Shown here in pieces: positions 1,376 through 14,661 of a stretch of DNA of 21,030 nt (positions are counted from its first letter, which is position 1; every line of letters begins with the position of its first letter). Origin of the DNA: a virus; IMG/VR virus record IMGVR_UViG_3300031565_006348, positions 1 through 21,030 of that record; one strand, given 5' to 3'. Position numbers and translations under genes: made by a program. The notes beneath the pieces are model-generated. The model ran no database searches and was not told the origin of the DNA. It saw only the letters and a program-made list of their open reading frames with translations.

Positions 1376-1735
1376 TTACAACTTTTCCGGTTCCACCGGG
1401 GTGGGGAGCGCGGCCAACTTGCGCGTCAGTTCTGCAACTGCCGGGTCTTCAGGGCCGAGGCCCGTACGCCGTAACACCGTGCGCGCCGCTTCGTACATCT
1501 TGCGCCGCTCCTCGTTGGTAGGCGCGGGAAACATCGCTGTTTCCAGCGCCGTCAGCGCCTCCTGCGATAGCATCGATTCGAGCAAGCTGACAGCTACGCG
1601 GGGCCGTGCATCCAAGAATGCCGCCACACGCTCAGGATCGCTGAAGCGCGCCGCCTCTTGCGCGGACACCGCGAGGCCGACGAAGCCAAGCGCCAGCGTT
1701 GCCAACACCAAACAAGCCACTACGTGTTTCATCAT
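1376..1735 (-). CDS. Small exported protein of unknown function (Sec signal peptide)
   Basis: This is a 119-aa protein with an RBS AGGAG 5 nt before ATG 1735; a second ATG directly follows at 1732 with 8 nt spacing, so either may be used. Residues 1-25 form a typical signal peptide: a Lys-His n-region, a hydrophobic core of about 20 residues rich in Leu, Val and Ala, and a V-S-A site before Gln. The mature part (about 94 aa) is helical and charged, with motifs such as NEERRKMYEAAR, and has no further membrane segment. There is no lipobox at the cleavage point (the only early Cys is residue 8), so an outer-membrane spanin lipoprotein is unlikely. It sits between the signal-peptide fibre gene (8 nt gap) and the hub-like gene. 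I do not recognise the family. A periplasmic role during lysis, or an accessory to the fibre, are guesses. Confidence 0.75.
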   Translation of the reverse strand: MMKHVVACLVLATLALGFVGLAVSAQEAARFSDPERVAAFLDARPRVAVSLLESMLSQEALTALETAMFPAPTNEERRKMYEAARTVLRRTGLGPEDPAVAELTRKLAALPTPVEPEKL

Positions 1736-1743
1736 CCGTTCTC

Positions 1744-3519
1744 CTAATCGGTTTGATCGCCCACCGCGTTGCCGTCAGCGTTTGCGGTTGGCAACGCGTT
1801 ATGACATTTCAACGTACCGTCATCTTCTGCAAAGTAGTACCAGACCGTGCCGTTAGGCGAGGCGAGCTTCCAGCAGCCGGGCGTGTTGCCCCCCGCGCCG
1901 TCCCAGGCGGTGAAGACTCCGCGCGCTGCACCGTCCGCGCCCGCCTCGACGCCGGTGCCACCAACGAATTTCCCCAACGTCGCTACCACCTTCCCCGTAG
2001 TGCCCAGATACACGTCCGCCGCGCCGCCGATGTTGACCGTGGTAGACGTCGTGTTGAATAGGGTCGCCGTGGCGGCGGATGACGTGATGTCGCCGCCGTT
2101 GACAGCCCAGTCGCGCGTTGTCACTATCGGGCCAGTGGCAGGAAGCCAGAGAGTATCTTCGCTTGCCCCGGCATTGAAGGTGTGTATTTTTATGCCGCCG
2201 CTGTTGTCCGCCCCATCGCGATACGCGCGGATGCGCCCAATGATGTTATCTACCTGGGCGCTGTCCTGAATCACAAAATCAATGAGTGCGCCGAAACCAT
2301 CGATCATGTCCGCTGACGTTGTGTGCTGCACCTGCACCACCGAAGCGCCGCCGGTTGTTGCCGCCGAGGTTTTCGCGCCCTTCAGCACGGGGGAAGTGGC
2401 AGAGGTAAACCACCCCCGGCCCGCCGTCAGAGTGCCAGCTACCGTGACCGTCTTGGCCGCGCCGCCGATGTTCACGTCCGCCGCGCCGCCAAGGTTGATC
2501 GTGGCGGGTGTGACGTTGAACACGTTGACAGTGGCGGCAGAAGACGTGAGGTCGCCGCCGTTCACAGCCGCGTCGCCGGTCAAGGCAAGCGTCCCAAATG
2601 CGCCCGAACTTCCCGACACCGAATTGGTCGCCTGAACACAATTACTCGCGATGACGCTGTTTGTTGCATTGACATCTGCGGTTGCGGAAATTGAGCCATA
2701 CACCGTCATGTTTCCGGTTGCACCCGTGTCAGACCATGCCGCCATGTAGTTGCCGTCCGCATCCTTCAGAATTAGCATCCCCGGATTGGTCTGGTAGTCA
2801 AAGCCAAAGTCGGCATCGTTGCCGAAATTCAGCCGCGTATCATCCTGGACTTCCCATACGGCAGAGATGTTCTCGGTTGCGTTGACGTGTGCCACGTTTG
2901 CCGACAATGCCGCGTCCGCAACCGTACCCCCCGCGCCCACCGTGATCGTATCGGTAAGGTCGCCGTCAACCACGTTGGTCCACGAGTAGTTATGGAGGTC
3001 GTTGTCCACGTCTAGATCGGTCCCCGAAATCGAGAGCAACTGATTCGGCACAAGCCAGGCCGACGCACCAGCGCCGTCATCCCAAAAGTAAATCCTGTCT
3101 ACCGCCCCGGGATCGCTCATGCTTTCAATGCCAAGGTGAGATAGCGCCACCGTTACCGTATCGGTTGCACCGCCCGTCGTGGCGATGCCGGCACCGCCCG
3201 CGATGGTCAGCGTGTTGCCGTCATTGATAGTCTGGTTCGCACCGCCGTCGCCGGCAAGCGTGATGCCGGTCATAGCCGTGAGCGCGCCGATAGTGAGCGT
3301 GCCGCTTACTACAAGATCGCCCGTCGTGCCTGCGTCTTCCCAGCGCACCATTTCGTTGGCGTCGGCGTCCTTCAGGACAAGGTTCGTGCCGTCGAAAACC
3401 TGAGCCCAGTCGCTATCGTCGCCGAATCGCAATTCGTCGTTGTCGCCTAGACGGATAGACTTCTGTGCGCCAGCGGGTAGGGCCGCCAGCACAAGCACGA
3501 GAATCAATAGCCGTTTCAT
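1744..3519 (-). CDS. Modular tail fibre-like protein with Sec signal peptide
   Basis: This is a 591-aa protein. I chose ATG 3519 because GAGG lies 9 nt upstream and the residues after it form a signal peptide: Met-Lys-Arg, a Leu/Val core, then A-G-A before Gln-19. The longer frame would run 123 nt into the upstream gene. The rest is Gly/Ala/Thr/Asp-rich beta-type sequence typical of phage fibres. Two modules are duplicated: residues 28-71 match 229-274 (both contain LKDAD and a W-x-D-x-G-x-T-G segment), and residues 318-352 match 472-506 (NGGD, SSAAT, INLGGAADV types). Residues 410-465 (IDFVIQDS, IIGRIRAYRDG) and the C-terminus (PGCWKLASPNGT, ADDGTLK-like, PTANADG) resemble common fibre modules. 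It probably binds host surface or structural partners. The signal peptide is the odd feature, since fibres are normally assembled in the cytoplasm. Confidence 0.8.
   Translation of the reverse strand: MKRLLILVLVLAALPAGAQKSIRLGDNDELRFGDDSDWAQVFDGTNLVLKDADANEMVRWEDAGTTGDLVVSGTLTIGALTAMTGITLAGDGGANQTINDGNTLTIAGGAGIATTGGATDTVTVALSHLGIESMSDPGAVDRIYFWDDGAGASAWLVPNQLLSISGTDLDVDNDLHNYSWTNVVDGDLTDTITVGAGGTVADAALSANVAHVNATENISAVWEVQDDTRLNFGNDADFGFDYQTNPGMLILKDADGNYMAAWSDTGATGNMTVYGSISATADVNATNSVIASNCVQATNSVSGSSGAFGTLALTGDAAVNGGDLTSSAATVNVFNVTPATINLGGAADVNIGGAAKTVTVAGTLTAGRGWFTSATSPVLKGAKTSAATTGGASVVQVQHTTSADMIDGFGALIDFVIQDSAQVDNIIGRIRAYRDGADNSGGIKIHTFNAGASEDTLWLPATGPIVTTRDWAVNGGDITSSAATATLFNTTSTTVNIGGAADVYLGTTGKVVATLGKFVGGTGVEAGADGAARGVFTAWDGAGGNTPGCWKLASPNGTVWYYFAEDDGTLKCHNALPTANADGNAVGDQTD
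2011..2107 (-). repeat. Imperfect direct repeat, copy A (97 bp) in fibre gene
   Basis: This segment aligns without gaps to 2473-2569, beginning CACGTCCGCCGCGCCGCC on the plus strand in both. The 462-bp offset is exactly 154 codons, so the same protein module (residues 472-506 region) recurs in frame. It is a coding repeat within the fibre gene. Confidence 0.8.
2473..2569 (-). repeat. Imperfect direct repeat, copy B (97 bp) in fibre gene
   Basis: Second copy of the 97-bp repeat, encoding the residues 318-352 module of the fibre. It differs from copy A by substitutions only, with no length change, as expected for an old in-frame duplication or exchange between fibre modules. Confidence 0.8.
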
Positions 3520-3530
3520 TGTGATGTACC

Positions 3531-5426
3531 TCACACGTAGTCTAGGTTCACGCCCAAGACCAGCGCGCCGCTGCTGTTTAGGCTCATTTTCGTTGACCAT
3601 ACGCCCGTCGCCGCGTTGTAGAATTGGAAGCACGTGTTTGCGTAGCAGCCCCACACCGGCACGCCCGCGCCGGAACTGTGGACCGCCTCAACGTAGTCCG
3701 CGCCGTTCCATGTAATCGTTTCGGCCACGACGTCTACCTTGAGCCGTTGTGTGCCGTTGACGTTAAAGAAGATCTCTTTTGCGCCAACGTCCCACGTGCC
3801 GATCTCGACTGTGCCGACGCCCGCGCCCGAAACGTCGTCTGTGATAATCGAAAACTCGGGCTTCCAATTATCATCAGAAAGTGTCCAGACGAGCGCGGTG
3901 TCGGCCCATAGCTCTACGGAATGGCCCGTGATAACCCAGCGGACGTTCTTCGCCTCGTCGATGTAGACGGGGCTGTCGGGTTCCACAACCGTCGCATAGG
4001 CCCCGTAGGTGCGGCCAATTGCCAGATCGGGCCGGGGCAGGTTGGCCCACCAATACGTTGCGGTGGCGGTATAGATCGCCGCGTTCTCGCTGTCCGATAC
4101 CGGATTTTCCCCGTCGTCGCGGCGCGCGCGCACGATGCACCGGATGGGCGTCTCGTCCAAGTGGGCCGCCGTGGTGTATTCGAGAATGCCCGAGCTGGAC
4201 ATGGTTTCGACTACCGGCTCGTCTACGTCGGGATCGGGGTCTGTGCCGTCTGCGGTCAGGAAAATAGCCCACTTGTTTGCCTGCGCCGCCGCCGCGTCAA
4301 GCGACTTGAAATAGCGGGCCGTCACGAGGATCGTGCCGTCGCTCTGGGCGAGCAGTCCCACGTCGGACGGCCCCGACGGCGGATTTATCAGCACGTCCCC
4401 TTCGGCGTCGAGAGGTAGGCGCGTAGTCTCTTGTGGCGCGGCCACAAGCCCATAGGCGTTCCGGTATAGCTCTTCGTAGTAGTAGGTATGATCCGCGTCG
4501 AGCGGCCCGTAGGACAGATCCTCTTGTGCCGCCGCCGTGTCTTGCGGCGCGGCGTCAAAATCGGGCGGGGCGTCTTGGCCTACGAAGAGCTGGTACTGCC
4601 GGTGGCTTGCCTTGCCGCGCCGCGCGATCCCGCGCAAGTCGGCATGCAGGTTATCCAGGCCGCCGCTCGTGTATGCTGCCCGAATTTCGACGCGCTTGTG
4701 CGCGCTCACGTCCGCCGTGTACTGGCGACGCATCCACAGGCCCAGCCACGCGCCCGGCGCAAGCGTCAGACTCGCCTTGTAGTAGTTCCACTCCACGTCG
4801 GTGGGCGCGGTGAATTGATCCGCTATCGTTTGGATCGCGCCGTCAACCGGAACCTCCGTGGCGAAGCGCAGCCAGTCCCGCATACCGTCCGCGTCGGGGA
4901 TCAATAATTCCAAGCCTGTTGCCTGTGCGGACCCAGCGTTATAGAGTCCCACTGCGCTATAGGTGTAGCCCACGTCCTCGGACGTGTAGTCGTCGCCCGC
5001 CGCGACGGTGTTGTAGGTGTCGCGCAAATGGATCGTTTCTTCGCCCACGAGATCGGCGTTCAGGACGCGCTTGACCTTGATGGTCTTCGTGTAGTTGCCG
5101 CCAGCACTGGCCCACGGAATGATGCGCTCTTCGCCGTAGGGCACTTCAACGGTTTCACTCCAGGTTGTTTCGCCTGGCGGTTGCCATCGTAGCGTGTCCA
5201 CCGTGACCGCCTGTAGGGTGGCCGAGCCTTCGCCGCTGTAGCCCTCGACGTGTATCAAGCGCACGCCGCTGATCGGGCTGTACCGTTGCCACGAGAGCGA
5301 CTTGGCTAGCGAACACGACCTTTCGCCGCCCAGACAATTGGCAACAACGGGTTGCCAACCGTCCGCTATTTCAGCGCCCGTGTGGTACACAACGAGTGAA
5401 ACCTTATCGGCGTGGGCATCAGGCAC
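3531..5426 (-). CDS. Large tail-tip / host-specificity-like protein
   Basis: This is a 631-aa protein with a GTG start at 5426. AAGGA lies 9 nt upstream and the start overlaps the previous gene by 8 nt (GTGCCTGA), a normal coupling arrangement. The first ~260 residues are beta-rich, with repeated Trp/Tyr strands (e.g. GAWLGLWMRRQYTADV). Residues about 280-450 look like one or two fibronectin III/Ig-like repeats (YYYEELYRNAYGLV; PIRCIVRARRDDGEN with an NPVSDSENA edge strand). The C-terminal ~150 residues are again beta-rich (VRWVITGHSVELWAD, TVEIGTWDVGAKEIFFNVNG), as in receptor-binding or fibre-base proteins. It lies between an FnIII-like protein and the fibre, so it probably forms the tail tip or fibre base. 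No enzymatic motif is seen. The family is not recognised with certainty. Confidence 0.75.
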   Translation of the reverse strand: MPDAHADKVSLVVYHTGAEIADGWQPVVANCLGGERSCSLAKSLSWQRYSPISGVRLIHVEGYSGEGSATLQAVTVDTLRWQPPGETTWSETVEVPYGEERIIPWASAGGNYTKTIKVKRVLNADLVGEETIHLRDTYNTVAAGDDYTSEDVGYTYSAVGLYNAGSAQATGLELLIPDADGMRDWLRFATEVPVDGAIQTIADQFTAPTDVEWNYYKASLTLAPGAWLGLWMRRQYTADVSAHKRVEIRAAYTSGGLDNLHADLRGIARRGKASHRQYQLFVGQDAPPDFDAAPQDTAAAQEDLSYGPLDADHTYYYEELYRNAYGLVAAPQETTRLPLDAEGDVLINPPSGPSDVGLLAQSDGTILVTARYFKSLDAAAAQANKWAIFLTADGTDPDPDVDEPVVETMSSSGILEYTTAAHLDETPIRCIVRARRDDGENPVSDSENAAIYTATATYWWANLPRPDLAIGRTYGAYATVVEPDSPVYIDEAKNVRWVITGHSVELWADTALVWTLSDDNWKPEFSIITDDVSGAGVGTVEIGTWDVGAKEIFFNVNGTQRLKVDVVAETITWNGADYVEAVHSSGAGVPVWGCYANTCFQFYNAATGVWSTKMSLNSSGALVLGVNLDYV

Positions 5427-5931
5427 CGGTTAGCATCCTTGTTTCGGCGTCATACGTTACTGTTTGATCGGGCCGACTCGGGCGGCGCACGAGCGGGATA
5501 GTAAAGTCCTTGGGCGCGCCCTCGACGCCGTCCGGGCCGATAGCCACGACGCGGCAGCGGTGGCTCTGCTCGTCCTCGAGCGCGCGCGTCCGGTAGTGAT
5601 ACATCCACTGGTCTGCATCCCGTATGCGGTGGCGCACGACCCATTCGCTGTCTACATATTCGTCGATGCGGTAGGACTTAGCGGTAGGGGACCGTTCCCA
5701 GAAAAAGACAAACTGTGAAGGGTAACACCGATCCGGCGTATCGCTTATGCTGTCGAATACCTGGACCGCAAGCACCGCACCGCTTTCGACGGGAATGTCA
5801 TAGAATGTGCGGGTAGTCGTGACGTATAAGAACCCGTCCAGGTAGACGTAGAACGTGCCGCTGCCGGACCACGAGATCCGCCACGACAGCCCGCCGGGAA
5901 GTTGCGCCGCCGTTATGTCTACTTCTGCCAT
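5419..5931 (-). CDS. FnIII-like minor tail protein
   Basis: This is a 170-aa protein starting at ATG 5931, which overlaps the upstream stop as TAATG; a longer frame reaches 5970 but lacks this junction. The first ~85 residues form beta strands (WRISWSGSGTFYVYLDG). Residues about 80-155 have the fibronectin type III pattern: a SYRIDEY strand, YRTRALEDEQSHRCRVVAIG with the conserved aromatic/Val-x-Ala core, then a G-x-E-G-A-P turn leading to Pro-rich sequence. FnIII domains are common in phage tail tips and help bind surfaces. It overlaps the downstream large tail-tip gene by 8 bp, which implies coupled synthesis. A minor tail protein is likely; its exact position in the tip is unknown. Confidence 0.75.
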   Translation of the reverse strand: MAEVDITAAQLPGGLSWRISWSGSGTFYVYLDGFLYVTTTRTFYDIPVESGAVLAVQVFDSISDTPDRCYPSQFVFFWERSPTAKSYRIDEYVDSEWVVRHRIRDADQWMYHYRTRALEDEQSHRCRVVAIGPDGVEGAPKDFTIPLVRRPSRPDQTVTYDAETRMLTGA

Positions 5932-6311
5932 TAGTAGCTCGTCACCGTGGACTGCAAACGCCACGCGCATTCAAGGTGGTATAGGTAGCCTTCGGTATCG
6001 AGGCCGACGTTGAAGGTGCGCGGCTTCATATCAAGCACCATAAAGCCGTTCCACAGGATGCCGTCGCGGTCATAAATGCCGATGATCGTGCCTTGGAGAT
6101 CCTTAGCCATCAGCTTGAAGACGTTGCGCGCGTACACGGTCGCAAACGCCGCCGTCGCCACGATGGTACCCGTATCGCCGTGGATATTCTTATCGTGATA
6201 GCCGTACCCGGCATTACCGGAGCGGATAAATGGCTCCACAATTGCACCCGCGAGCGGCAGGTCGCCGGTGTAGAACCGAAACTGCATACCGCCTATTAGG
6301 TTTGCCGCCAT
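5931..6311 (-). CDS. Minor tail protein, possibly distal-tail-like
   Basis: This is a 126-aa protein whose ATG overlaps the tape-measure stop codon (TAATG), so translation is probably coupled. It is beta-rich, with motifs such as FRFYTGDLPLAG, KDLQGTIIGIYDRDG and YLYHLECAWRLQS, and has no membrane segment. It is encoded directly after the tape measure, where siphophages usually encode the distal tail protein or a tail-tip adaptor. It is much shorter than a typical distal tail protein (about 200-250 aa), so it may instead be a small adaptor. The gene is well supported but its family is not recognised. Confidence 0.7.
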   Translation of the reverse strand: MAANLIGGMQFRFYTGDLPLAGAIVEPFIRSGNAGYGYHDKNIHGDTGTIVATAAFATVYARNVFKLMAKDLQGTIIGIYDRDGILWNGFMVLDMKPRTFNVGLDTEGYLYHLECAWRLQSTVTSY

Positions 6312-8167
6312 TAGTCTCTGTCCGTTCTGGGTTGCGCGGGGCGGGTCACTTGACGAGGCGCCGGTCCCGAATAGGGCACCCGTCCGAACTTGCTCGGACC
6401 GGCCTTTTCTACGGCTGTCGTGTTGTTCCGCAATTCCTCTAACATCTTGACCGCCGCTTGCTTGAGCATGTTTAGTGAACGGTCGCCCAGCTCAACGGGT
6501 GCATAGCCGGAAGGTAGATTTGGCTGACCATAGGGGTAAAAGGCACCCGGCGCCCCCCGGGGTAAATGGGGCGCATACAGCATATCCTCCTCTAAGCCCC
6601 GCCGCACCCCATAGAACTCCATCTTCTGCTCTGCCGTACCGAATCGCTCGATAGTTGCCTGGTCTCCCAGGATCATTTGTTCGGCGCGTATAAACAGCTT
6701 CGCAAGCGCCACTCCAAATTCGCTCATTCTCCCTGCGGCCCGTTCCTCTCCAAAGTATTGCTTCATGGCGGCATCAGCCATTAGGCGCTCGGCGGCAATC
6801 ACCTGCTCTGCTATGGCCTGCCCGGCTTCACCTATTCGGGCCGCGCGGGGCGCCCTCAATTCGGGCTGCTGTCGAGCAGACCCGACGATCTGCTCTATCA
6901 TTTCGCCGGTATCAGCGCCACGAACGTCACCAAGTATTTGCCCGTACAGCTCCCGATTTGCCTGTAAGCCCTGATAGGCCGTTAGGGCCTCTTTGCGTCG
7001 CAAGAACTCGATAAGTTGCGGCTCATTCAGCCCTAGCGCCTGAACCTTGTCTAGCGATTCTTCCAGCGACAACCCCTTGAACGTGCCGAGTTCTCCTAAA
7101 CGCTCTTGTAGCGGCCCCGCAGCCGGGCCGAGGAATTTCACCATTTCGGCTTCGCTCATGTCTAGGCCACCAAGTTTGTCTATCGCCTCGCCATAACGTA
7201 AATCGCGAAACGGACGCTCCTTCCCTACCTTGGCCCTTGGTAAGACGCCCCCGAGTGCGGCGGTGGCATCCTCCCCTAGAAAGCCCACAAGCTGTTCATC
7301 GGTAAGCCCCATGCCGCCGATCTTCTTAATAGCGTCGGGTAGTGTTAGGTCTTGAAAGCCCGCCTCCCTCAAGAGGGACGTTGCTAGTGACCTAATGGCC
7401 GTTCCGCCCCGTCGGGACTCGCCCAGGGTTTTGCTCATAACGGTTGTAGCGGCAAGGACTTCTTCATCGCTCCACTTCAACATACCGCCCGCAGCGGCGG
7501 GCATCGCCGTGGCTTCAAGTAGTTCCGGGATAGTCGCCGGCGCATATGCGCTTGCTGCCGCGCCCTTACTTAGAATCTGCCGTACCCCCCCCGTTTCTTC
7601 TGCGCCCATCGCCGTACTGATAGTGGCAGCGCCGCGCGCTAGTGTCGGGATGTCTTGTATGGGGCCGTAGAGGCCAGTAAACAAGCGGCGATTTTCTTCT
7701 GTGTTTAGCCCCGCCGACGTAATAGAGAATAGCGTGCGTGCTACTGTATCCAGATCCGGCCCGCCACCCCCTTTGTACATCTCCTTTGCCTGTCTGATTA
7801 GCTCGGCTTCCCGTTGCGGATCACCCAAGGCCAACTGGCCCAACGAACCCAACCCCATCTCTGACGCCCGCATACGCTCTGCGGCTTCCGCCCGCGCCTG
7901 GTCCATCTCTTGAATAGCAACCGTGGCTGAGCGCGCAGCTAGGGTGACGGCGGCAAAACCGGCGGCGTACAGCGCAACGCTTTTCGCCCCGCTATCAGTC
8001 GCCTCTGTGCTTTTCTTTACACCCTCTTCGGTCTCCTTGCCCGCCTTCCGGCCCGCCGTCGCCACACCCCGAAGTTTCTGCTCCATCTTGTCGATCCTGC
8101 GATTAGCGCGATCAATCGCAGCGACCGCCTTTTTCTCATTCGCGGTCATGTCGGTGTGAATAGCCAC
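6311..8167 (-). CDS. Tail tape measure protein
   Basis: This is a 618-aa protein with a GTG start at 8167; GAGG sits 6 nt upstream and the start is 2 nt after the previous stop. Residues 8-60 are a charged coiled coil (ANEKKAVAAIDRANRRIDKMEQ). A hydrophobic stretch (about 63-84) and long Ala/Glu/Arg-rich helices follow. The central part (about 200-270) resembles the TP901-type core, with I-P-E-L-L-E-A-T-A-M-P and LAATTVMSKTLGESRRGGTAIRS-like helices. Three related units follow at 274-301, 323-350 and 366-393, each with a short A-I-x-K-(I/L) helix, a Gly turn and a (Q/E)-(L/M)-x-x-F-L helix. The C-terminus is Pro/Tyr-rich. By the usual ~1.5 A per residue, a short tail of roughly 90 nm would be expected (inference). 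It is encoded downstream of the tube and frameshifted chaperone, the standard position for a tape measure. Confidence 0.88.
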   Translation of the reverse strand: MAIHTDMTANEKKAVAAIDRANRRIDKMEQKLRGVATAGRKAGKETEEGVKKSTEATDSGAKSVALYAAGFAAVTLAARSATVAIQEMDQARAEAAERMRASEMGLGSLGQLALGDPQREAELIRQAKEMYKGGGGPDLDTVARTLFSITSAGLNTEENRRLFTGLYGPIQDIPTLARGAATISTAMGAEETGGVRQILSKGAAASAYAPATIPELLEATAMPAAAGGMLKWSDEEVLAATTVMSKTLGESRRGGTAIRSLATSLLREAGFQDLTLPDAIKKIGGMGLTDEQLVGFLGEDATAALGGVLPRAKVGKERPFRDLRYGEAIDKLGGLDMSEAEMVKFLGPAAGPLQERLGELGTFKGLSLEESLDKVQALGLNEPQLIEFLRRKEALTAYQGLQANRELYGQILGDVRGADTGEMIEQIVGSARQQPELRAPRAARIGEAGQAIAEQVIAAERLMADAAMKQYFGEERAAGRMSEFGVALAKLFIRAEQMILGDQATIERFGTAEQKMEFYGVRRGLEEDMLYAPHLPRGAPGAFYPYGQPNLPSGYAPVELGDRSLNMLKQAAVKMLEELRNNTTAVEKAGPSKFGRVPYSGPAPRQVTRPAQPRTDRD

Positions 8168-8169
8168 GA

Positions 8170-8637
8170 TTAACCTCTAATGTTCACAACGCGCCTATTC
8201 CGCGCGCGCCCGATCCCGTACTCAATTTCCTTTTGAAGGAGCTGTTCAATCTCCCTGCGCTCGGCGGCGGACATCGATGTGAATTCCTCAAGCAATCGCG
8301 GATTGAAATTGAGAACGCGGGTATGTGTTACGATTCTGACGCCGCCCTGACCACCTACAGAGTACGGCCTAATGTCCTCAAATCTGGACATATCCCGAGT
8401 CGTGCCCGTCCACACGAACGGCAGATTATGTCCCCTTACTGCCTTTTTCCTGCGCTGGTATTGGCTGGATCGCCCCGTGTAGTGAAGTTCCCGCGCGCCC
8501 TCCTCGGTGAAGCGTTTAGGCAGCATCCGCTGGTGATACAACACGCCGGCTTTGCCCCACGCCTCTTTCATGATCTGATTGAGTTCACGCTTTTTCATGC
8601 CCGCTATGCCGTCAAGCGTCAGTTTGAAAAAGAGCAT
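8170..8637 (-). CDS. Phage virion morphogenesis / tail-completion-like protein
   Basis: This is a 155-aa basic protein. I chose ATG 8637 because it lies exactly 2 nt after the stop of the -1-frame extension of the upstream gene, so ribosomes finishing the frameshift product can reinitiate here. A GTG at 8721 is in frame but has no RBS. An N-terminal helix (about 15-45; IMKEAWGKAGVLYHQRM) leads to a basic stretch with Tyr (LHYTGRSSQYQRRKKA), then LPFVWTGTTRDM and a strand-rich part ending near VNIRG. The 'helix, Y-x-x-R-K, P-(F/L)-V-x-(S/T)-G-x-x-R' pattern resembles Mu gpG / HK97 gp10-type tail completion and morphogenesis proteins. Here it lies after the chaperone rather than before the tube, so the role is tentative. 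Confidence 0.7.
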   Translation of the reverse strand: MLFFKLTLDGIAGMKKRELNQIMKEAWGKAGVLYHQRMLPKRFTEEGARELHYTGRSSQYQRRKKAVRGHNLPFVWTGTTRDMSRFEDIRPYSVGGQGGVRIVTHTRVLNFNPRLLEEFTSMSAAERREIEQLLQKEIEYGIGRARNRRVVNIRG

Positions 8638-8639
8638 GG

Positions 8640-9439
8640 CTACCGCCCCGCTTCTGCCGCCCACAGGTCCGCAAATGTGGGTGAATAGTTGGGCATCAGT
8701 CCTCGCTGCCAGGCATGACACAGGAGCCGTCTGCTAGTGTTTTTTTTTCCAGGAAGTCTAGGATAACGGGCCAATCGACCGTCGCGTCGAGGATTAGCGT
8801 CACGGCATGCCAGCTAAATAGGCCGCGCAACGCCACCTCCACCTTGCCGACATAGTAGTTTGTCGCCAACGCCACGAGCGCGGCGTCGTGCGACTCCGCA
8901 AACGTCACGGGCGCGTCCTGGTCTGCCGCCTGGACCTTGGTATCCCACCAGTGGCACGCCACGTCCCACAGGGGCCGGTAGCGGGCCGCTACGTCGCCCT
9001 GTGTCCAGTCGCCGTTGTCATCCACGCCCGAGATCGTAGGGACCGCCATGACGGGTACAAGCGTGTCGCCGTCAGCGACCATGGCGCGCGCAATCGGCAC
9101 GACCCACGTATTGCCGTCGCCGAGTTCGACCGGGTGGCCGCGCAGTGTAACGGGCCGTAGCAGATCGCGGGGGACGGGGGGATCGTCTGTGTAGAACCCG
9201 GCCCACGCCTCGGAGCCGGGCACTTGTCGCCACGTCTGACGATCCCGGTAGTAGCGGATAAGGTGGCTGGGTGTACGCCGCGAATCCGCAACGACAAGGC
9301 CGTTGCTTTTGTCGGGGCCACCCTGGACGCCGCAACATGAAGGCGCGGCATCAAAAGCGTATTCAAGGCCAAGGCTACGTAGATCGTCTAGACTAACCCG
9401 GTCCTTGCGCCCTGGCGCGTAGTACAGAAAGCCACACAT
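8640..9439 (-). CDS. Predicted -1 frameshift product of the tail chaperone (lambda gpGT-like)
   Basis: Reading shifts -1 at GAA-AAA-AAA-ACA (A9 run at 8748-8740) after Lys233; the joined segments are 9439..8741 and 8741..8640. This continues for 33 codons through N-T-S-R-R-L-L-C-H-A-W and MPNYSPTFADLWAAEAGR to a TAG at 8642-8640, giving 266 aa. The new frame spans the zero-frame stop and ends exactly 2 nt before the ATG of the next gene, filling a gap that would otherwise be non-coding. In lambda and many other siphophages, a minority product made this way binds both the tape measure and tail tube protein. Transcriptional slippage on A9 would give a similar mixture. No strong downstream stem-loop was found. 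Not experimentally shown. Confidence 0.6.
8696..9439 (-). CDS. Tail assembly chaperone candidate, zero-frame product (lambda gpG-like)
   Basis: This is a 247-aa protein with a strong RBS, AAGGAGG 4 nt before ATG 9439. It lies between the tail tube and the tape measure, the position of lambda G/GT. The N-terminus (CGFLYYAPGRKD) and a Cys-Cys pair at 35-36 are not recognised. The C-terminal third is helical (ESHDAALVALATNYYVGKVEVALRG in part, then a helix ending FLEKK), as in chaperones whose C-terminus carries a slippery site. Lys232-Lys233 are coded by AAA-AAA within a run of nine A. A -1 shift here gives a longer product, annotated separately. Zero-frame translation adds 14 residues and stops at 8696. 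The sequence family is unknown to me; the function is inferred from position and the slippery run. Confidence 0.7.
   Translation of the reverse strand: MCGFLYYAPGRKDRVSLDDLRSLGLEYAFDAAPSCCGVQGGPDKSNGLVVADSRRTPSHLIRYYRDRQTWRQVPGSEAWAGFYTDDPPVPRDLLRPVTLRGHPVELGDGNTWVVPIARAMVADGDTLVPVMAVPTISGVDDNGDWTQGDVAARYRPLWDVACHWWDTKVQAADQDAPVTFAESHDAALVALATNYYVGKVEVALRGLFSWHAVTLILDATVDWPVILDFLEKKTLADGSCVMPGSED
8740..8749 (-). other. Slippery sequence for -1 frameshift (G followed by A9)
   Basis: On the minus strand this reads G-AA-AAA-AAA-A, in the zero frame GAA AAA AAA ACA. The heptamer A-AAA-AAA fits the X-XXY-YYZ rule for tandem -1 slippage. It is the longest homopolymer I noticed in the window, and it lies 45 nt upstream of the zero-frame stop, at the site expected in a tail chaperone gene. 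Confidence 0.6.
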
Positions 9440-9457
9440 AATCCCTCCTTGAAATCA

Positions 9458-10396
9458 TCATGTAATAGCCGACGTGGTGCTGATAACCAGCGGATCGTTT
9501 GTATCGTCGCCGTAACAGGTGAGCTGCACATCGCATGTCGCCAGCGCGTTGCCGGTCGCGTCAAAGGCGTTCTGTACCGTGGCTACGCCGGCAGCCGTGA
9601 TCAAGATGTGTTCTGCGGTGATATCGGCTACAAACCCAGTACCGCCTATCGCGCGCTTGCGCAGATAGATGGCCGTGTTTGCATGCGTGACAGCCAGGCC
9701 CAAGAGCGGGATCGCCGCATCGGCAAGCCACGCAACGTTGACGCCGCGGAATGTGAGCACCGGTATGATGCTAACGATGTGGGCGTGCCGGTCCCAGATT
9801 TCCGAGTCGGAGCCGTCGGTCTGCGCCACGATTCCAAACGAGATATCGATGCCGCGCAACTGCGAAAGGTCCACACTTTCGAGGGCGACCGGGCCAAGGG
9901 TGAACCGCTCAGCGTCTGTGATGGTCGTTGGCAGCGCCACTGAGTCCGCTTCAGCGATGGGGTCGTTTGTACCGTCCCATGTCGGCATCGTCTCGTAGCT
10001 GATCGTGGCATCGTCCTGGTGCGCCGCCGAAAGCGTGCGAGGCAGTACGATCCCCTCTGTCAGCGTGTAGCTGCGGTGTGCCGCGCCCGCCGTGCGCGTA
10101 GAGCCCTCGTCCATCAACTGCGCGTAGAAGATGAGCCCGGCGGCCAGGTCCGCTATGCTTTTCGAGTACGGCGATACAATGCCAAAGGCATCAAGCGCCG
10201 CCGCCACATTGACCGTTGTAAACCCCCCGGTGGGCGTCTGCTTGTAGAGCGACGCGAATCGCGGCTCGGCTTCGCCGCTTGTGGGCGTGGCGCGCACGTC
10301 CGAGCCCACGCCGAGCCGCTGTGCCGTGATTCCGCCGATGACGGTCGTATTGGACACGACCGCGCAAAGTGTGTGAACGGCAGTTATACCAGCCAT
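9458..10396 (-). CDS. Major tail tube protein (probable)
   Basis: This is a 312-aa protein with AAGGAA 8 nt before ATG 10396. It is rich in Ala, Thr, Ser, Val and Gly with short beta strands and few charged clusters, as tail tube proteins are. Examples are PTGGFTTVNVAAALDAF near residues 55-72, SVDLSQLRGIDISFGIVAQTD (in part) near 170-195, and a C-terminal strand series ending DPLVISTTS. It has no signal peptide or membrane segment. It follows the head-tail joining and tail-terminator candidates and precedes the chaperone and tape measure, exactly where the tube is encoded in lambda-like modules. It is longer than lambda gpV (246 aa). I do not recognise a specific family, so the call rests on composition and order. 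Confidence 0.65.
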   Translation of the reverse strand: MAGITAVHTLCAVVSNTTVIGGITAQRLGVGSDVRATPTSGEAEPRFASLYKQTPTGGFTTVNVAAALDAFGIVSPYSKSIADLAAGLIFYAQLMDEGSTRTAGAAHRSYTLTEGIVLPRTLSAAHQDDATISYETMPTWDGTNDPIAEADSVALPTTITDAERFTLGPVALESVDLSQLRGIDISFGIVAQTDGSDSEIWDRHAHIVSIIPVLTFRGVNVAWLADAAIPLLGLAVTHANTAIYLRKRAIGGTGFVADITAEHILITAAGVATVQNAFDATGNALATCDVQLTCYGDDTNDPLVISTTSAIT

Positions 10397-10408
10397 GAGA
10401 TCGTTTCC

Positions 10409-10915
10409 TTATTCGTTGGGTTGTCCGTCGGACAGGTCCAGAGCCCAGTTCCACACCCAGTAGGCCGCGCTGCCCTGAGAGCCCTCTACGTATGACGGCT
10501 GTGAATCGACAGGGTAGTAGGCGCTAAAGTTTAGGTAAGCGCCCACGCCAGCCAATGCGGCGAGCCCATCCATGATCCCGTACACGTCGTGCATGAAGCT
10601 CTTGGCTTCGTTCTGGAAGTCGGCGGCATAGGCGACGTTGGGTATAGCCTCGAATCGCAAGACGATGCGCCCGCCTACATCGGGGCCGAATTCTGTGCTT
10701 GTAGTCGTGGATACCGAATTGCGCCGCGCGTCCTCGTGCCACATTTCCACAAAGGGTCTAGCGGGCGACTCGACTGTCACAAGATAGATAGACGCCTTAG
10801 CGGCGGCAGCGTCGGCGGCACTGACCCAGGTACGAAACGCCGTAACATTTGCAAGCACGGTCTCGGCGTTTTCAAGGCAGAGCCCGAAGGGATCTGTGAA
10901 TACCACGTCGGCCAT
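10409..10915 (-). CDS. Tail terminator / tail completion candidate
   Basis: This is a 168-aa protein starting at ATG 10915, which overlaps the stop of the previous gene (TAATG), with GAGG 8 nt upstream. A longer frame to 11023 would sit entirely inside the upstream gene and is rejected. The N-terminal half has a helix (NAETVLANVTAFRTWV) followed by an Ala-rich helix, then strands with IYLVTVES and a conserved-looking GGRIVLRFEA strand. The second half (DFQNEAKSFMHDVYGIMDGL) is helical, then aromatic-rich. An alpha/beta protein of this size between the FII-like joiner and the tube is usually the tail terminator (lambda gpU position). No specific family is recognised. Confidence 0.6.
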   Translation of the reverse strand: MADVVFTDPFGLCLENAETVLANVTAFRTWVSAADAAAAKASIYLVTVESPARPFVEMWHEDARRNSVSTTTSTEFGPDVGGRIVLRFEAIPNVAYAADFQNEAKSFMHDVYGIMDGLAALAGVGAYLNFSAYYPVDSQPSYVEGSQGSAAYWVWNWALDLSDGQPNE

Positions 10916-11286
10916 TAGCTTCGCCTCACAAACTTCTTGCCGCCCGCCACCTCTTGCCGCGCATAAAGCACTATCGCCAGCGTGTGCATCGTGGCTGTGG
11001 ACGGCTTGCCCTGCACGTACCACGTCTCGCCGCGTATAGACACCGCGTCGCCCTCCGCCGGGCTTGCAATGCCGAGCGTGGTGTCTGTGTAAATCTTCAA
11101 TACGCCCACGCGCAAGACGCCGCGCTCGTCGTCCTGGTAGGCCATAGCGTCAGCATCCTCAGAGAAGATGCCGGTGATGTTCTTGGCCTCAGCGCCCGCC
11201 GCCGTATAGCTCACGGTTTCGCCGAAACTCGCCATAAGCTCGGGTGCCGCGCTGGTAGCAAACTGGGTATCGAATGTGCTCGCCAT
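10915..11286 (-). CDS. Head-tail joining protein (lambda gpFII-like)
   Basis: This is a 123-aa protein with ATG 11286, 3 nt after the upstream stop; the RBS is weak (AGG), which suggests translational coupling. The sequence has the pattern of the small beta-barrel FII-type attachment proteins: LMASFGETVSYTAAG, then ITGIFSED, then a VGVLKIY strand, a P-A-E-G-D-A-V-S-I-R-G-E-T-W-Y-V strand pair (processed as 'GDxVxIxGxxYxV' in the family), and a C-terminal strand LAIVLYARQ. These proteins cap the portal-adaptor stack and receive the tail. Its place after the capsid genes and before the tail terminator agrees. Confidence 0.7.
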   Translation of the reverse strand: MASTFDTQFATSAAPELMASFGETVSYTAAGAEAKNITGIFSEDADAMAYQDDERGVLRVGVLKIYTDTTLGIASPAEGDAVSIRGETWYVQGKPSTATMHTLAIVLYARQEVAGGKKFVRRS

Positions 11287-11289
11287 AAC

Positions 11290-11781
11290 CTACTCGTGAT
11301 TGGCTATGCCGTTGCTGATTATCAGATACAGGATGCCCTGCGCCCCCGTGCTACCGGCGTTTAGCGCGCCCGTATTGGACAAGTAGAGATTGGACGCGAC
11401 GGGAATAGAATCGGACGGCCAAAACTCGATGGCCTTCATGGTGTCCGTGTTATGCGTAAGCGTCCCGCCCGCCAGATCGTCAGTCAAGGTATTCGAGGTC
11501 TGGCCGTATGCGATCTCCTCTTGAACAGAGATCGTCATGGTATTCGCTATGGGGTTTGTCGCGTGGGGTTCAATATAGGCGCGGTACAGCATCCCTACCA
11601 TCGGCCTGTCTGTTCGCGCTGTAGCGACGCCGCTGTTGTCCGCCGTGAAGTTCCAGCGAAGGACGTACCCGGTATCGTTGACTTCCTCGATCTCGATGAT
11701 ATCTGTTGCGAAGATCGGGGAGATGGAGACAATGAGTAGCGTCGCCACGAACGCTACGGAACCTGCTATGATACGTTTCAT
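11290..11781 (-). CDS. Virion-type beta protein with Sec signal peptide, between capsid and head-tail joining genes
   Basis: This is a 163-aa protein with an excellent RBS (AAGGAGG, 7 nt spacing) at ATG 11781. Residues 1-25 form a signal peptide or anchor: Met-Lys-Arg, a core of about 18 hydrophobic residues, and a P-I-F-A site before Thr. The mature part is beta-rich: an acidic IIEIEEVNDTGYVLRW strand, then MVGMLYRAYIEP, TMTISVQEEI, and a C-terminal GAQGILYLIIS strand. The order 'G-x-L-x-A-x-x-x-P, T-(I/V)-(S/T)-V-x-(E/D), P-V-x-x-L-x-L-S-x-x-G, G-x-L-x-L' resembles a small virion protein seen in many siphophage head-tail clusters, normally without a signal. A hairpin lies just upstream of its RBS. 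Function unknown; a surface or decoration protein is possible. Confidence 0.72.
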   Translation of the reverse strand: MKRIIAGSVAFVATLLIVSISPIFATDIIEIEEVNDTGYVLRWNFTADNSGVATARTDRPMVGMLYRAYIEPHATNPIANTMTISVQEEIAYGQTSNTLTDDLAGGTLTHNTDTMKAIEFWPSDSIPVASNLYLSNTGALNAGSTGAQGILYLIISNGIANHE

Positions 11782-11856: not shown

Positions 11857-13074
11857 TTACGGGGCCGTCGTGGCGGACAGATTCTGGACAACGTACACGT
11901 AGTCGCGCGCGCCGATTTCAACGTCCCACGCGATACGGGCCTGGAAGGCGATCCGAGCCCTGAGAAAGCTCTCGGTGTCACCGGCCAGCGTCACGTACTC
12001 GAAGTTCAGCTTCCACTTGCGCACGAACTGCTTGGCGAAGTCCCCGAGATACCACACGGTGGTCGAGAGATCGTCCAGGCGAGGCGAGCTGAGCAGGCGC
12101 GGGCGGAATGCCCCGCGCGGCCCCCAAGACGACCACTCATTGAGCGTGCCGGAGATCATCTCGCTATTGAGGATCTGCATGGCCTCGGCAAGTAGGGCGT
12201 CGGGTACGAGCAGGGTGCAGCTCGACATCGGGATATAGACGCGCTCGCCGAGCGAGTCCGTCATGGCCGTGAGTAACAGGCGCGCCGCCTCAAGGTCCGT
12301 GTGGTCTGCAAGCGCGTTGTTGGTCTTGCGGTTGCCGCTCGCCCCGCAGCGCGTCAAAACGGCAGCGCTCGTGACATAGAGCGGCGTGCCGGCCCCATTG
12401 GGCCGCAGCACATAGGGTTCTGCCGGCGTGGTCGCAGAGCCGTCGATATCGCATACACGGCGGAGGGTCTGCTTCTCGACCCAGTTGCTGGAGATCTGCG
12501 CCAGCTTGTTGATCCGGTCCACGATACCGGCTACGTTGTTCTCTTCGATGGTCTCAGCGGTGATACTGAGCCGACGACCGTTGCGCAGCGAGCGAATTTC
12601 GTACTTCTCTTCGCCAGCGCCGATCTCGGGGAAGTCCTTACTTTCATCGACGCGATCAATCTGCACGTCCTCGGAAGTCGTGGCCGCATAGATACTGACC
12701 TTCTTGCTGTCCTCTGCCTCAGTTACGAGCTCCTGCCCGATGGTGGGCACGGTCTCGTATTCGGCATTGAGCCCCGCAATGGTCATGCCGCCGGCAAGCA
12801 GCGGAAACGCGCTCGCCATAACGGCGCGGGTCTGGCCGGCGAATTCAAAATGGGCCTTGACCTGCACGTCGGCCAAGGCATGGAACAGCCTCGGCAGACT
12901 GCGCACGTCCTGCCATTTCAACTCGCCCTTGTCGATGAACTCCTGACACCGATCCATGAACGTTTCGGGATTGGCCTCGGCCATGGCCCGGAGGCTGTCC
13001 ACGTCCATGCCCGATCCGAACCTAATATCAGACCGAATCATGGGGTGCTTCTTCTTGGAAACTTCAGTTGCCAT
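11857..13074 (-). CDS. Major capsid protein (HK97-fold type)
   Basis: This is a 405-aa protein. AAGGAG lies 9 nt before ATG 13074 but only 3 nt before an in-frame ATG at 13080, so I prefer 13074. It has a helical N-terminus (residues about 25-70, MDVDSLRAMAEANPETF), then a region like an N-arm/E-loop with EYETVPTIGQELVTEAED and strands DVQIDRVDESKDFPEIGAGEE. The long central part includes the spine-helix type sequence AGIVDRINKLAQISSNWVEKQ. The C-terminal ~80 residues run through YLGDFAKQFVRKWKLNFEYV to RARIAFQARIAWDVEIGARDYVYV-type strands, the typical last beta-sheet of HK97-fold capsids. It follows protease, scaffold and decoration genes. A size of about 45 kDa is usual. No crosslinking or cleavage site can be assigned by eye. 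Confidence 0.85.
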   Translation of the reverse strand: MATEVSKKKHPMIRSDIRFGSGMDVDSLRAMAEANPETFMDRCQEFIDKGELKWQDVRSLPRLFHALADVQVKAHFEFAGQTRAVMASAFPLLAGGMTIAGLNAEYETVPTIGQELVTEAEDSKKVSIYAATTSEDVQIDRVDESKDFPEIGAGEEKYEIRSLRNGRRLSITAETIEENNVAGIVDRINKLAQISSNWVEKQTLRRVCDIDGSATTPAEPYVLRPNGAGTPLYVTSAAVLTRCGASGNRKTNNALADHTDLEAARLLLTAMTDSLGERVYIPMSSCTLLVPDALLAEAMQILNSEMISGTLNEWSSWGPRGAFRPRLLSSPRLDDLSTTVWYLGDFAKQFVRKWKLNFEYVTLAGDTESFLRARIAFQARIAWDVEIGARDYVYVVQNLSATTAP

Positions 13075-13110
13075 TGTCATTATCTCCTTCCTGGAGGCCC
13101 CATCGGCCTG

Positions 13111-13626
13111 TTAGGTTTGCAGTTTCGCATAGACGCTGACGGCCCGCGTGAACGTCATACGCACATACGATATGGTGCGGATCGTCGTACCCGCGTCGCC
13201 CGTCGCGTCATCGGCCAGATGGCCCTGCTTGTCCGGGTAGTGTTCCTGGCCGACTGCATTGCCGACCTCGTCGGTTCCTGTGGTCGCGAGCGTTTCGGAG
13301 TCGCTATAGAACACCTCAGCCCCATAGGCAATGTCGCATTCCGCCGCCAGGGGAAACTCGAACACGTCGCCGGGGCGCGGTACGATGACCTCGTAGTAGC
13401 CGGCACGGTCGCCGGACTTGATCTCTTCGTTGGCAATAGCGACGTTGCCAGCGCCGGCGAAGTCGCTGTCCATAGGCACCCATTCCGTGTTGGTGTTGCC
13501 CGTGAACTCCAGCATCTCGCCCCGCTTGATCGCCTGGGTTGCGCCAGCCGCAAAGTTGCCGAGCATCACCAACGGCTCGGACGCGCCTTCAAGATTGCGA
13601 ATCCAACGCGCGTGGTTCGTAGCCAT
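13111..13626 (-). CDS. Capsid decoration-like protein
   Basis: This is a 171-aa protein, with GGAG 8 nt before ATG 13626. It is beta-rich, acidic and has no Cys. Motifs include MLGNFAAGATQAIKRGEMLEF, a typical 'x-A-G-x-x-I-x-x-G-x-x-(L/V)' start seen in DUF2190 and lambda gpD-type small head proteins, followed by IKSGDRAGYYEVIVPRPGDVFEFP and YGAEVFY strands. The C-terminus (IRTISYVRMTFTRAVSVYAK) forms final strands. Such proteins bind the outside of the expanded capsid. Encoded between protease/scaffold and major capsid, the same place as lambda D. The pattern is suggestive, not decisive. Confidence 0.65.
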   Translation of the reverse strand: MATNHARWIRNLEGASEPLVMLGNFAAGATQAIKRGEMLEFTGNTNTEWVPMDSDFAGAGNVAIANEEIKSGDRAGYYEVIVPRPGDVFEFPLAAECDIAYGAEVFYSDSETLATTGTDEVGNAVGQEHYPDKQGHLADDATGDAGTTIRTISYVRMTFTRAVSVYAKLQT

Positions 13627-13653
13627 GTCTCATTCTCCTTCTTGCTGCGTCTG

Positions 13654-14016
13654 CTAACCGCAGATCGCGCGTTTGAAGTCGTTGTCCGGCAGGTCTGCCG
13701 AGCGGGTGTCCGGCTTCTGTTCGCCGGTAGCCGTAGGCTTCGGGGGCTCGGGCGTCCCCACTGCCTCGCTGCCCTTTGCCAGTTCCTCGATGAACCGCTT
13801 GCGCGCCGTCGGCACGTCCGCGCCCTGCGCAATCAGCTCATCCGCCACCTTGTCCATACCGCGCGGCGCAATCGCCCGAATCGCCACCGTCAGCGCGGCG
13901 AGCGACCGCCCCGCGTCTTCCTCGGGCGTGCTGTGAACCACGGAGGTCTCGGTCGGAGTCTTGACTTCGACCACGGTGGCGCGGGCCTCGCCCTTCTCTT
14001 TCGTTTCGTCAGCCAT
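13654..14016 (-). CDS. Nested in-frame scaffold protein (lambda Nu3-like arrangement)
   Basis: Inside the protease gene, ATG 14016 (Met216) has GAGGAG 6 nt upstream (14023-14028). The product would be 120 aa, identical to the protease C-terminus: helical and charged, with Thr/Pro/Glu-rich ends and the helix SLAALTVAIRAIAPRGMDKV. In lambda, Nu3 is translated in frame from the 3' part of protease gene C and acts as scaffold. This RBS is as strong as those of real genes here. Separate translation is inferred, not shown. Confidence 0.6.
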   Translation of the reverse strand: MADETKEKGEARATVVEVKTPTETSVVHSTPEEDAGRSLAALTVAIRAIAPRGMDKVADELIAQGADVPTARKRFIEELAKGSEAVGTPEPPKPTATGEQKPDTRSADLPDNDFKRAICG

Positions 14017-14661
14017 GTCTTTCTCCTCATCGCTGTTTGTTGCGACGGTCAACCGCCGCAGAGTGTCGGCCAGGCTGTGAATCACGGGCAGCAGCCCTTC
14101 GCCATCGCTATCGAAAAACCCGCGCCGCAACGCATTCGCGTCGGCGGGCACGGGGACCATGGTGATCTCAAATAATTCCCATTTGTTAATAACCACTCCA
14201 GGCCCAGACACTATGTCGTCGCCCTCGCCATCTGTCTCGCCCGGGCCAAGCACGCGCATTGCTGCGCGATTGGGAACAAAGCCGATTGAAACAGTCCTAA
14301 GAAACCCCGTTCGCACGAGTTCCCATATTTCAGAGGCCCGCCTCGTTGCAGCAAACACAATCTTTACTAATAGCTTCTTGCCCTCAACCCAAATATCACC
14401 CCTGCCGACAATGTTAGAAGCTGTCACATACGGCCTGTTGGCGTGTAAATCAAGAACGACCGGATTGATCTTGTATCGCGTAAAATCGGCCCCGGCCATG
14501 CGCAGATATTCGGTACCGGCCATCGTTTGGACGCCGTTCTCTGTTGCCGCCACAAATGTTGCCGTCCGTGACTCAGGTTCAATGTCACGGACCTCTATAA
14601 TATCGAGAAACCCGCGAGTATAGCCGCTAGTTTCATATTCAGTAATATCTATCTTTTTCAT
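13654..14661 (-). CDS. Prohead protease with C-terminal scaffold region
   Basis: This is a 335-aa protein with ATG 14661 overlapping the portal stop as ATGA; AAGGTGG lies a few nt upstream. Residues about 15-180 match the HK97 U4-type prohead serine protease: INPVVLDLHANRPYV with His73, VRTGFLRTVSIGFVP with Ser125, and WELFEITMVPVPADANA with Glu165, spaced as in the family's catalytic His/Ser and conserved Glu. Residues 185-335 are charged and low in complexity (Glu/Lys/Thr/Pro), as a scaffold would be, with an internal start at residue 216 (see nested CDS). The protease matures the prohead by removing scaffold and capsid delta-type segments. The protease half is AT-richer (about 51% GC by counting) than its flanks (62-68%), which hints at exchange. 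Confidence 0.85.
   Translation of the reverse strand: MKKIDITEYETSGYTRGFLDIIEVRDIEPESRTATFVAATENGVQTMAGTEYLRMAGADFTRYKINPVVLDLHANRPYVTASNIVGRGDIWVEGKKLLVKIVFAATRRASEIWELVRTGFLRTVSIGFVPNRAAMRVLGPGETDGEGDDIVSGPGVVINKWELFEITMVPVPADANALRRGFFDSDGEGLLPVIHSLADTLRRLTVATNSDEEKDMADETKEKGEARATVVEVKTPTETSVVHSTPEEDAGRSLAALTVAIRAIAPRGMDKVADELIAQGADVPTARKRFIEELAKGSEAVGTPEPPKPTATGEQKPDTRSADLPDNDFKRAICG
14023..14028 (-). promoter_or_regulatory. Internal ribosome binding site for the nested scaffold
   Basis: GAGGAG on the minus strand, 6 nt before the in-frame ATG 14016 in the middle of the protease gene. Codons for Asp-Glu-Glu-Lys also use it, but the spacing and length match the best RBSs in the window. Confidence 0.6.

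Follow-up and report, generated by a model that had tools for sequence, protein, structure and literature searches.

The window analysed here, a 21,030-base virus fragment (IMG/VR record IMGVR_UViG_3300031565_006348, positions 1 to 21,030) whose virion genes all lie on the minus strand, carries three virion-operon genes whose products begin with predicted Sec signal peptides (SPs). These are P0003 (163 aa), the first gene after the major capsid protein (MCP) gene, the fibre-like P0002 (591 aa), and the small P0001 (119 aa) directly after the fibre gene. Comparison with related phages revealed that SP-like N-termini recur at these two operon positions, sit exactly at the N-terminus of homologues that otherwise lack them, and co-occur within a phage. 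These sequence data give good support to a modular set of exported surface proteins of virion type that is inherited together. We put at about one in two the chance that the three proteins are Sec substrates that are exported in late infection and then either joined to particles at lysis or kept on the host surface.

Predicted signal peptides in the window

SPs were called with a home-made predictor that combines the hydrophobic core, the charge of the n-region and a cleavage matrix built from 28 known SPs of E. coli and M13 proteins, with a cut-off of 6. The gene caller was also home-made, and the contigs compared are fragments. In leave-one-out calibration the exact cleavage site was recovered for 27/28 of the known SPs. 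On a 50-kb stretch of E. coli K-12, known exported proteins scored ~6-9 and the single false positive had a membrane helix at its N-terminus; among the lambda late genes only lom satisfied the predictor in full. The background rate was 2.5% among 632 genes of viral contigs.

The original prediction had assigned Sec SPs to these three genes, and its coordinates and strand held up, with scores of 10.4, 7.5 and 6.7 and good ribosome-binding sites; the SignalP-type check that it proposed was run with the calibrated predictor, and all three N-termini scored as SPs. The highest score was that of P0002 (1744..3519, minus strand), whose predicted SP covers residues 1-18 (3466..3519, minus strand), MKRLLILVLVLAALPAGA followed by QKS, with the cut between PAGA and QKS. 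For P0001 (1376..1735, minus strand; 7.5) the predictor drew the cut after residue 27, but a cut between VSA and QE at residue 25 is more orthodox, and reading the sequence together with the prediction gives a likely SP of residues 1-25 (1661..1735, minus strand). P0003 (11290..11781, minus strand; 6.7) has a predicted SP of residues 1-25 (11707..11781, minus strand), MKRIIAGSVAFVATLLIVSISPIFA followed by TDI, with the cut between SPIFA and TDI; it has a long hydrophobic stretch and, at -0.2, the weakest cleavage-site score of the three. All three N-termini fit the substrate pattern of signal peptidase I, with a positive n-region, an uncharged core and small residues at -3 and -1. The P0003 ATG is preceded at 7 nt by AAGGAGG and the gene lies 75 bp past the MCP stop; P0002 starts just after the stop of the upstream gene, with GAGGT before its ATG; GGAG precedes the ATG of P0001. 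No other gene called in the window passed the SP test. The scores and their calibration thus give good support to the view that the three genes encode Sec substrates, which would then probably be exported and cleaved.

Searches of Pfam, PHROGs and NCBIfam with P0001-P0003 returned no match at a meaningful level, no Ail/Lom domain was found by Pfam up to E 1, and neither an outer-membrane anchor nor a lipoprotein anchor was apparent in any of them. P0001 had no homologue in Pfam, PHROGs or the searches of relatives, and deposited phages searched with P0003 and with the L067, L100 and L122 proteins yielded no homologues. AlphaFold on P0003 alone gave a pLDDT of 36.

Recurrence after the capsid gene and the N-terminal junction

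Relatives were found with the MCP of the window as anchor (11857..13080, minus strand; Phage_capsid_4, PF25209, E 4e-10). Clustered at 90% identity, the 52 loci that could be used fell into 42 clusters. In 21/40 clusters the gene immediately after the MCP was SP-bearing, compared to 2/284 genes upstream of the MCP (Fisher 5.5e-20), an enrichment of ~75-fold that was stable over thresholds from 4 to 10 and under a simpler rule; L003, almost the same phage as the window, is one of the 21. On the MCP tree the SP state is clustered, with at least 4 changes and probably 8. What occupies the slot varies: SP-bearing beta proteins, beta-helix proteins without an SP, lipoproteins, or nothing. In slot family A3, one mature protein occurs with an SP (L122, L092 and L124), without one (L120) and with a cytoplasmic extension (L090); the A3 profile did not match P0003. 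In slot family A2, ~50 residues past the cut are conserved, whereas the remainder varies greatly, a pattern known from adhesins and fibres. The beta-helix slot proteins are mostly SP-less (L082:9605-10510, L007:10545-11495, L009:6258-7181 and L080:8216-9910), and a related one, L085:2591-4657, has an SP. Lipoprotein-like genes adjoin beta-helix slot genes in L009 and L083.

The relation between SP-bearing and SP-less forms was clearest in the A7/A8 family. The A7 query was the mature part only of the second slot protein of L008, so an SP could not bias the sample. Among the 61 representatives found, 16 scored as SP-bearing; L144, with an internal SP start, raises this to 17 in the co-occurrence and cysteine counts. 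The only match to the A7 family among deposited phages was a Methanosarcina virus. A8 proteins are ~130 aa long, and members without an SP begin M-A-G-(T/S). In an alignment of 58 members, exactly Met-Ala stands ahead of the conserved Gly in 39/42 SP-less proteins, and in 13/16 SP-bearing ones cleavage is predicted one residue ahead of the same Gly. Removal of the Met or of the SP would therefore leave the same first residue in both forms. The cleavage predictor was built without any information from the A8 family. Because the SP sits exactly at the start of its SP-less homologues, it is unlikely to have arisen by chance from the composition of the protein or to be a structural helix buried in the virion, the latter being the case that was to count against the original prediction.

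SP-bearing genes also tended to occur together. A second SP gene was present in the fetched 5 kb flanks of 16/17 SP-bearing loci compared to 9/41 SP-less loci (p 3e-7), and SPs were found on 30/141 flanking genes of the former and 13/349 of the latter. This suggests that the SP state behaves as a trait of the phage rather than of a single gene. Exceptions are L165, L192 and L197, in which an SP-preceded fibre with the VTVNGTNHTIPQTNEKGWGN motif follows an SP-less A8 gene. Enrichment in cysteine, sought as a sign of periplasmic folding, was absent, the mean being 1.0 Cys in the SP-bearing and SP-less groups alike.

Fibre genes, hosts and the rest of the operon

The shaft repeats of P0002 match annotated tail fibres of the cyanophages BUCT-ZZ01 (E 7e-5) and S-CREM1 (E 2e-4), and the gene lies in the tail module in an order that is kept in L004; together these identify P0002 as tail-fibre-like. 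Many phage fibres whose N-termini are ordinary have these repeats too. The shaft motif LGDNDELRFGD, which directly follows the SP of P0002, is found elsewhere inside longer fibres with ordinary N-termini (e.g. L076). No N-terminal virion-attachment domain was recognised in P0002, although one of an unfamiliar type would escape notice. In the L004 homologue the N-terminus is still SP-like (MRHAVTFLTVALLALPAAG...; score 5.2), and the same motif comes next. That P0002 is joined by a frameshift to the tail gene upstream was ruled out, as ~155 bp separate the two genes in L004.

Other members of the clade, too, have SPs on fibre-like genes at the tail end of the operon. That of L079 scored 9.9; the second fibre of G001 (1018 aa) scored 8.9 and the first (TTG start; L008/G001) 4.5; and SP-bearing examples are present in G004 (939 aa), G006 (903 aa) and G007. 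In the G006 fibre the SP precedes the motif TTNYGLGKPAKGARGWDTTINANMDTID, a common phage-fibre N-terminus. G002 and G003, whose slot genes lack an SP, showed no fibre SP in the available sequence. In G001 the order of fibre, small SP-bearing protein and tail gene is the window order of P0002, P0001 and tail gene; the small protein (80 aa; L127:4061-4303) occupies the position of P0001, with no detectable sequence similarity to it. At L067:5570-8495 a tail-spike-like protein (PRFKAIDGNGNPIRGGLLYSYIEGTSTAKDTYSDKE, resembling a head-binding domain) is preceded by an SP and followed by an SP-bearing A7 relative. Six SP-bearing genes surround the tail-fibre region at L056:1489-9788, in a phage unrelated by the searches used. 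A Cellulophaga phage whose virion proteins were verified by mass spectrometry had no SP on those of them that were examined.

One contig bears on the host. Contig 23 of G279 (L217 and L218; 31 kb), part of a genome in the Nitrospirota group, runs from apparent host genes into phage genes that comprise a CI-like repressor gene, terminase, portal, and an SP-bearing A8 jelly-roll gene followed by an SP-bearing fibre. One phage of the SP-bearing kind may thus have a diderm host. The L079 bin belongs to the same GTDB phylum, the Nitrospirota group, among whose genomes few MCP relatives were found (2/296, one of them a weak partial match).

The window as a whole encodes a lambda-type portal, a decoration protein, the MCP, head closure, a tape-measure-like protein, tail genes and a protease. 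The head decoration gene (13111..13626, minus strand; phrog_122, E 9e-4) has no SP, nor does the head closure Hc1 gene (10915..11286, minus strand; phrog_82, E 2e-6), which bounds the post-MCP slot and, as the gene next to P0003, places P0003 within the head module. The tail protein upstream of the fibre (3531..5426, minus strand) is SP-less and conserved in L004. The gene after P0001 (3..1355, minus strand), SP-less and cut by the contig end, is a probable tail gene by position; it had no family match. A 624-aa antisense open frame (12301-14175, plus strand) over the MCP, decoration and protease genes most probably arises from the high G+C content of the coding sequence.

Possible addition at lysis or display on the host surface

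In tailed phages the cytoplasm is regarded as the place where virion parts are both produced and put together. In the pathway we propose, the three proteins would be translocated by Sec to the periplasm in late infection, lose their SPs and take up their fold in that compartment. Lysis, by breaching the envelope, would bring them together with the particles built in the cytoplasm, to which they would attach as a last step, or they would stay on the host surface. Their mature parts resemble the kinds of protein found on the virion exterior: the post-MCP one is a small beta protein, the second is like a tail fibre and the third is a small companion. Addition of the fibres to particles at lysis is favoured over free host-surface adhesins because the mature N-terminus is the same as in SP-less counterparts and because the genes stand in decoration and fibre positions; that the exported proteins end up on virions is the step of which we are least sure. 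The fullest form of this proposal, a class of tailed phages whose virion is built in two compartments, with a core made in the cytoplasm and Sec-exported fibres or cement proteins in the periplasm, joined at lysis, and with an SP module gained or lost at the exact N-terminus of ordinary virion proteins in several genes at once, we regard as tentative, its chances falling somewhat short of even.

Known systems bear on this step by analogy. The trimeric P22 tailspike, a surface protein, binds completed particles last and without further machinery, so late addition would be physically plausible; unlike the proteins here, it is made and assembled in the cytoplasm and has no SP. The predicted A8 model is a jelly roll (pLDDT 93), and cement and capsid proteins of phages are among its structural matches (7dou, Z 6.7; 7eel, Z 6.4; 8h89, Z 6.4). 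The cement and decoration jelly rolls of KHP30/KHP40, Pam1 and GP4 are of similar size and match the fold at Z 6.2-6.7, and several A8-family and slot genes lie just after an MCP gene, the A8 position beside the MCP being seen in part of the loci only.

Several observations weigh against the proposed pathway. Carbohydrate-binding modules and plant-virus coats match the A8 model at equal Z, all below 8, and with fold matches this unspecific a cement role is at most compatible with the model. The link between P0003 and A7/A8 is weak (hhalign probability 70% with the SP and 20% for the mature part, pairwise E 0.001), and the fibre SPs of L004 (5.2) and L008 (4.5) fall below the cut-off of 6. The closest relative, L004 (72% MCP identity), has no post-MCP gene, which argues that the post-MCP protein is dispensable there. 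We know of no precedent in tailed phages for the export of a receptor-binding fibre away from the site of assembly. In the post-MCP place, L004 has only a 34-codon open reading frame (L004:4763-4867; MKHLFSRAERLATAFSIAVGRLSLLVHKRPAVHE) with a strong ribosome-binding site ahead of it.

The foremost competing account, possible though less probable, is that the proteins are exported but never join the virion. Displayed on or shed from the host surface, they would bind the phage's own receptor through their fibre or jelly-roll domains and block superinfection, keep progeny from sticking to debris or siblings, or act as adhesins. The SP scores, the post-MCP recurrence and the junction apply equally to this account, and the absence of the slot gene from L004 speaks for it. 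So do two precedents: lambda lom, a known SP-bearing envelope gene in a late operon, and the MAT fibre adhesins of Bdellovibrio, which are exported to the cell surface and carry an SP, a beta-rich domain and phage-fibre-like trimeric shafts (PMC10769870). It is because of these precedents and the missing L004 gene that a host-surface role stays well alive. Neither precedent is a close fit. Lom, like the proteins here, is encoded inside the virion operon beside tail-fibre genes, but it is annotated as an outer host membrane protein, whereas Pfam and NCBIfam gave no meaningful match for the window proteins and the families described here have SP-less counterparts in virion operons. The Bdellovibrio adhesins share an SP followed by beta-rich domains and fibre-like shafts (PMC10769870), but they are cellular proteins of a predator, encoded outside any phage operon, and are likened by description rather than by sequence. 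Display alone also leaves unexplained why SP-bearing and SP-less homologues have an identical mature N-terminus and why, among the conserved head and tail genes, those with an SP stand where decoration and fibre genes would; nor was an outer-membrane or lipoprotein anchor apparent in the window proteins. The exported set that the original prediction envisaged finds support well outside the window, in the post-MCP recurrence in half of the MCP clade, the fibre SPs within the clade and the correlation among neighbours in an independent sample; the sequences do not discriminate between the roles it listed, namely surface display, addition at lysis and superinfection control.

Three further explanations are less likely. 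The hydrophobic N-termini might stay uncleaved, as membrane or particle anchors or as a signal for local assembly at the inner membrane. The long hydrophobic stretch and low cleavage-site score of P0003 would agree with this, as would the weak result of a shuffle test for A-x-A at the end of the core (16 observed compared to 12.4 expected), but the coincidence of the predicted cut with the SP-less start in A8 disfavours a buried helix or anchor, and the predicted cleavage-site Ala (A25) is invariant in 11 slot proteins in which the hydrophobic core varies, making an uncleaved anchor improbable. Hardly any more credible is that the genes are cargo ('morons') of mixed function at two tolerant operon positions, unrelated to the virion and exported incidentally: the high variability of the post-MCP slot fits, but the SP state is correlated among neighbours and with fibre genes, and domains are held in common with SP-less virion-operon proteins. 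Chance hydrophobic N-termini or wrong start codons are very improbable indeed; the SP calls come from a home-made predictor alone and the starts are inferred, but the strong ribosome-binding sites, the enrichment at one position and the exact junctions oppose this explanation, which the position statistics lead us to reject.

In the full texts searched, whose coverage was partial so that a prior report is possible, Sec signals on tailed-phage proteins of fibre or decoration type were nowhere described, and deposited phage genomes likewise contained no description of the pattern. Target proteins of phage diversity-generating retroelements are stated to lack signal peptides (PMC6199706), and one phage genome annotation reports none (PMC4642752). 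A recurrent, co-inherited Sec-tagged set of fibre- and decoration-type proteins would point to a two-compartment route of virion assembly, or else to a widespread programme that displays phage adhesins on the host. Prediction of an SP on a viral contig should accordingly not be counted as evidence that a gene is host-derived or non-structural.

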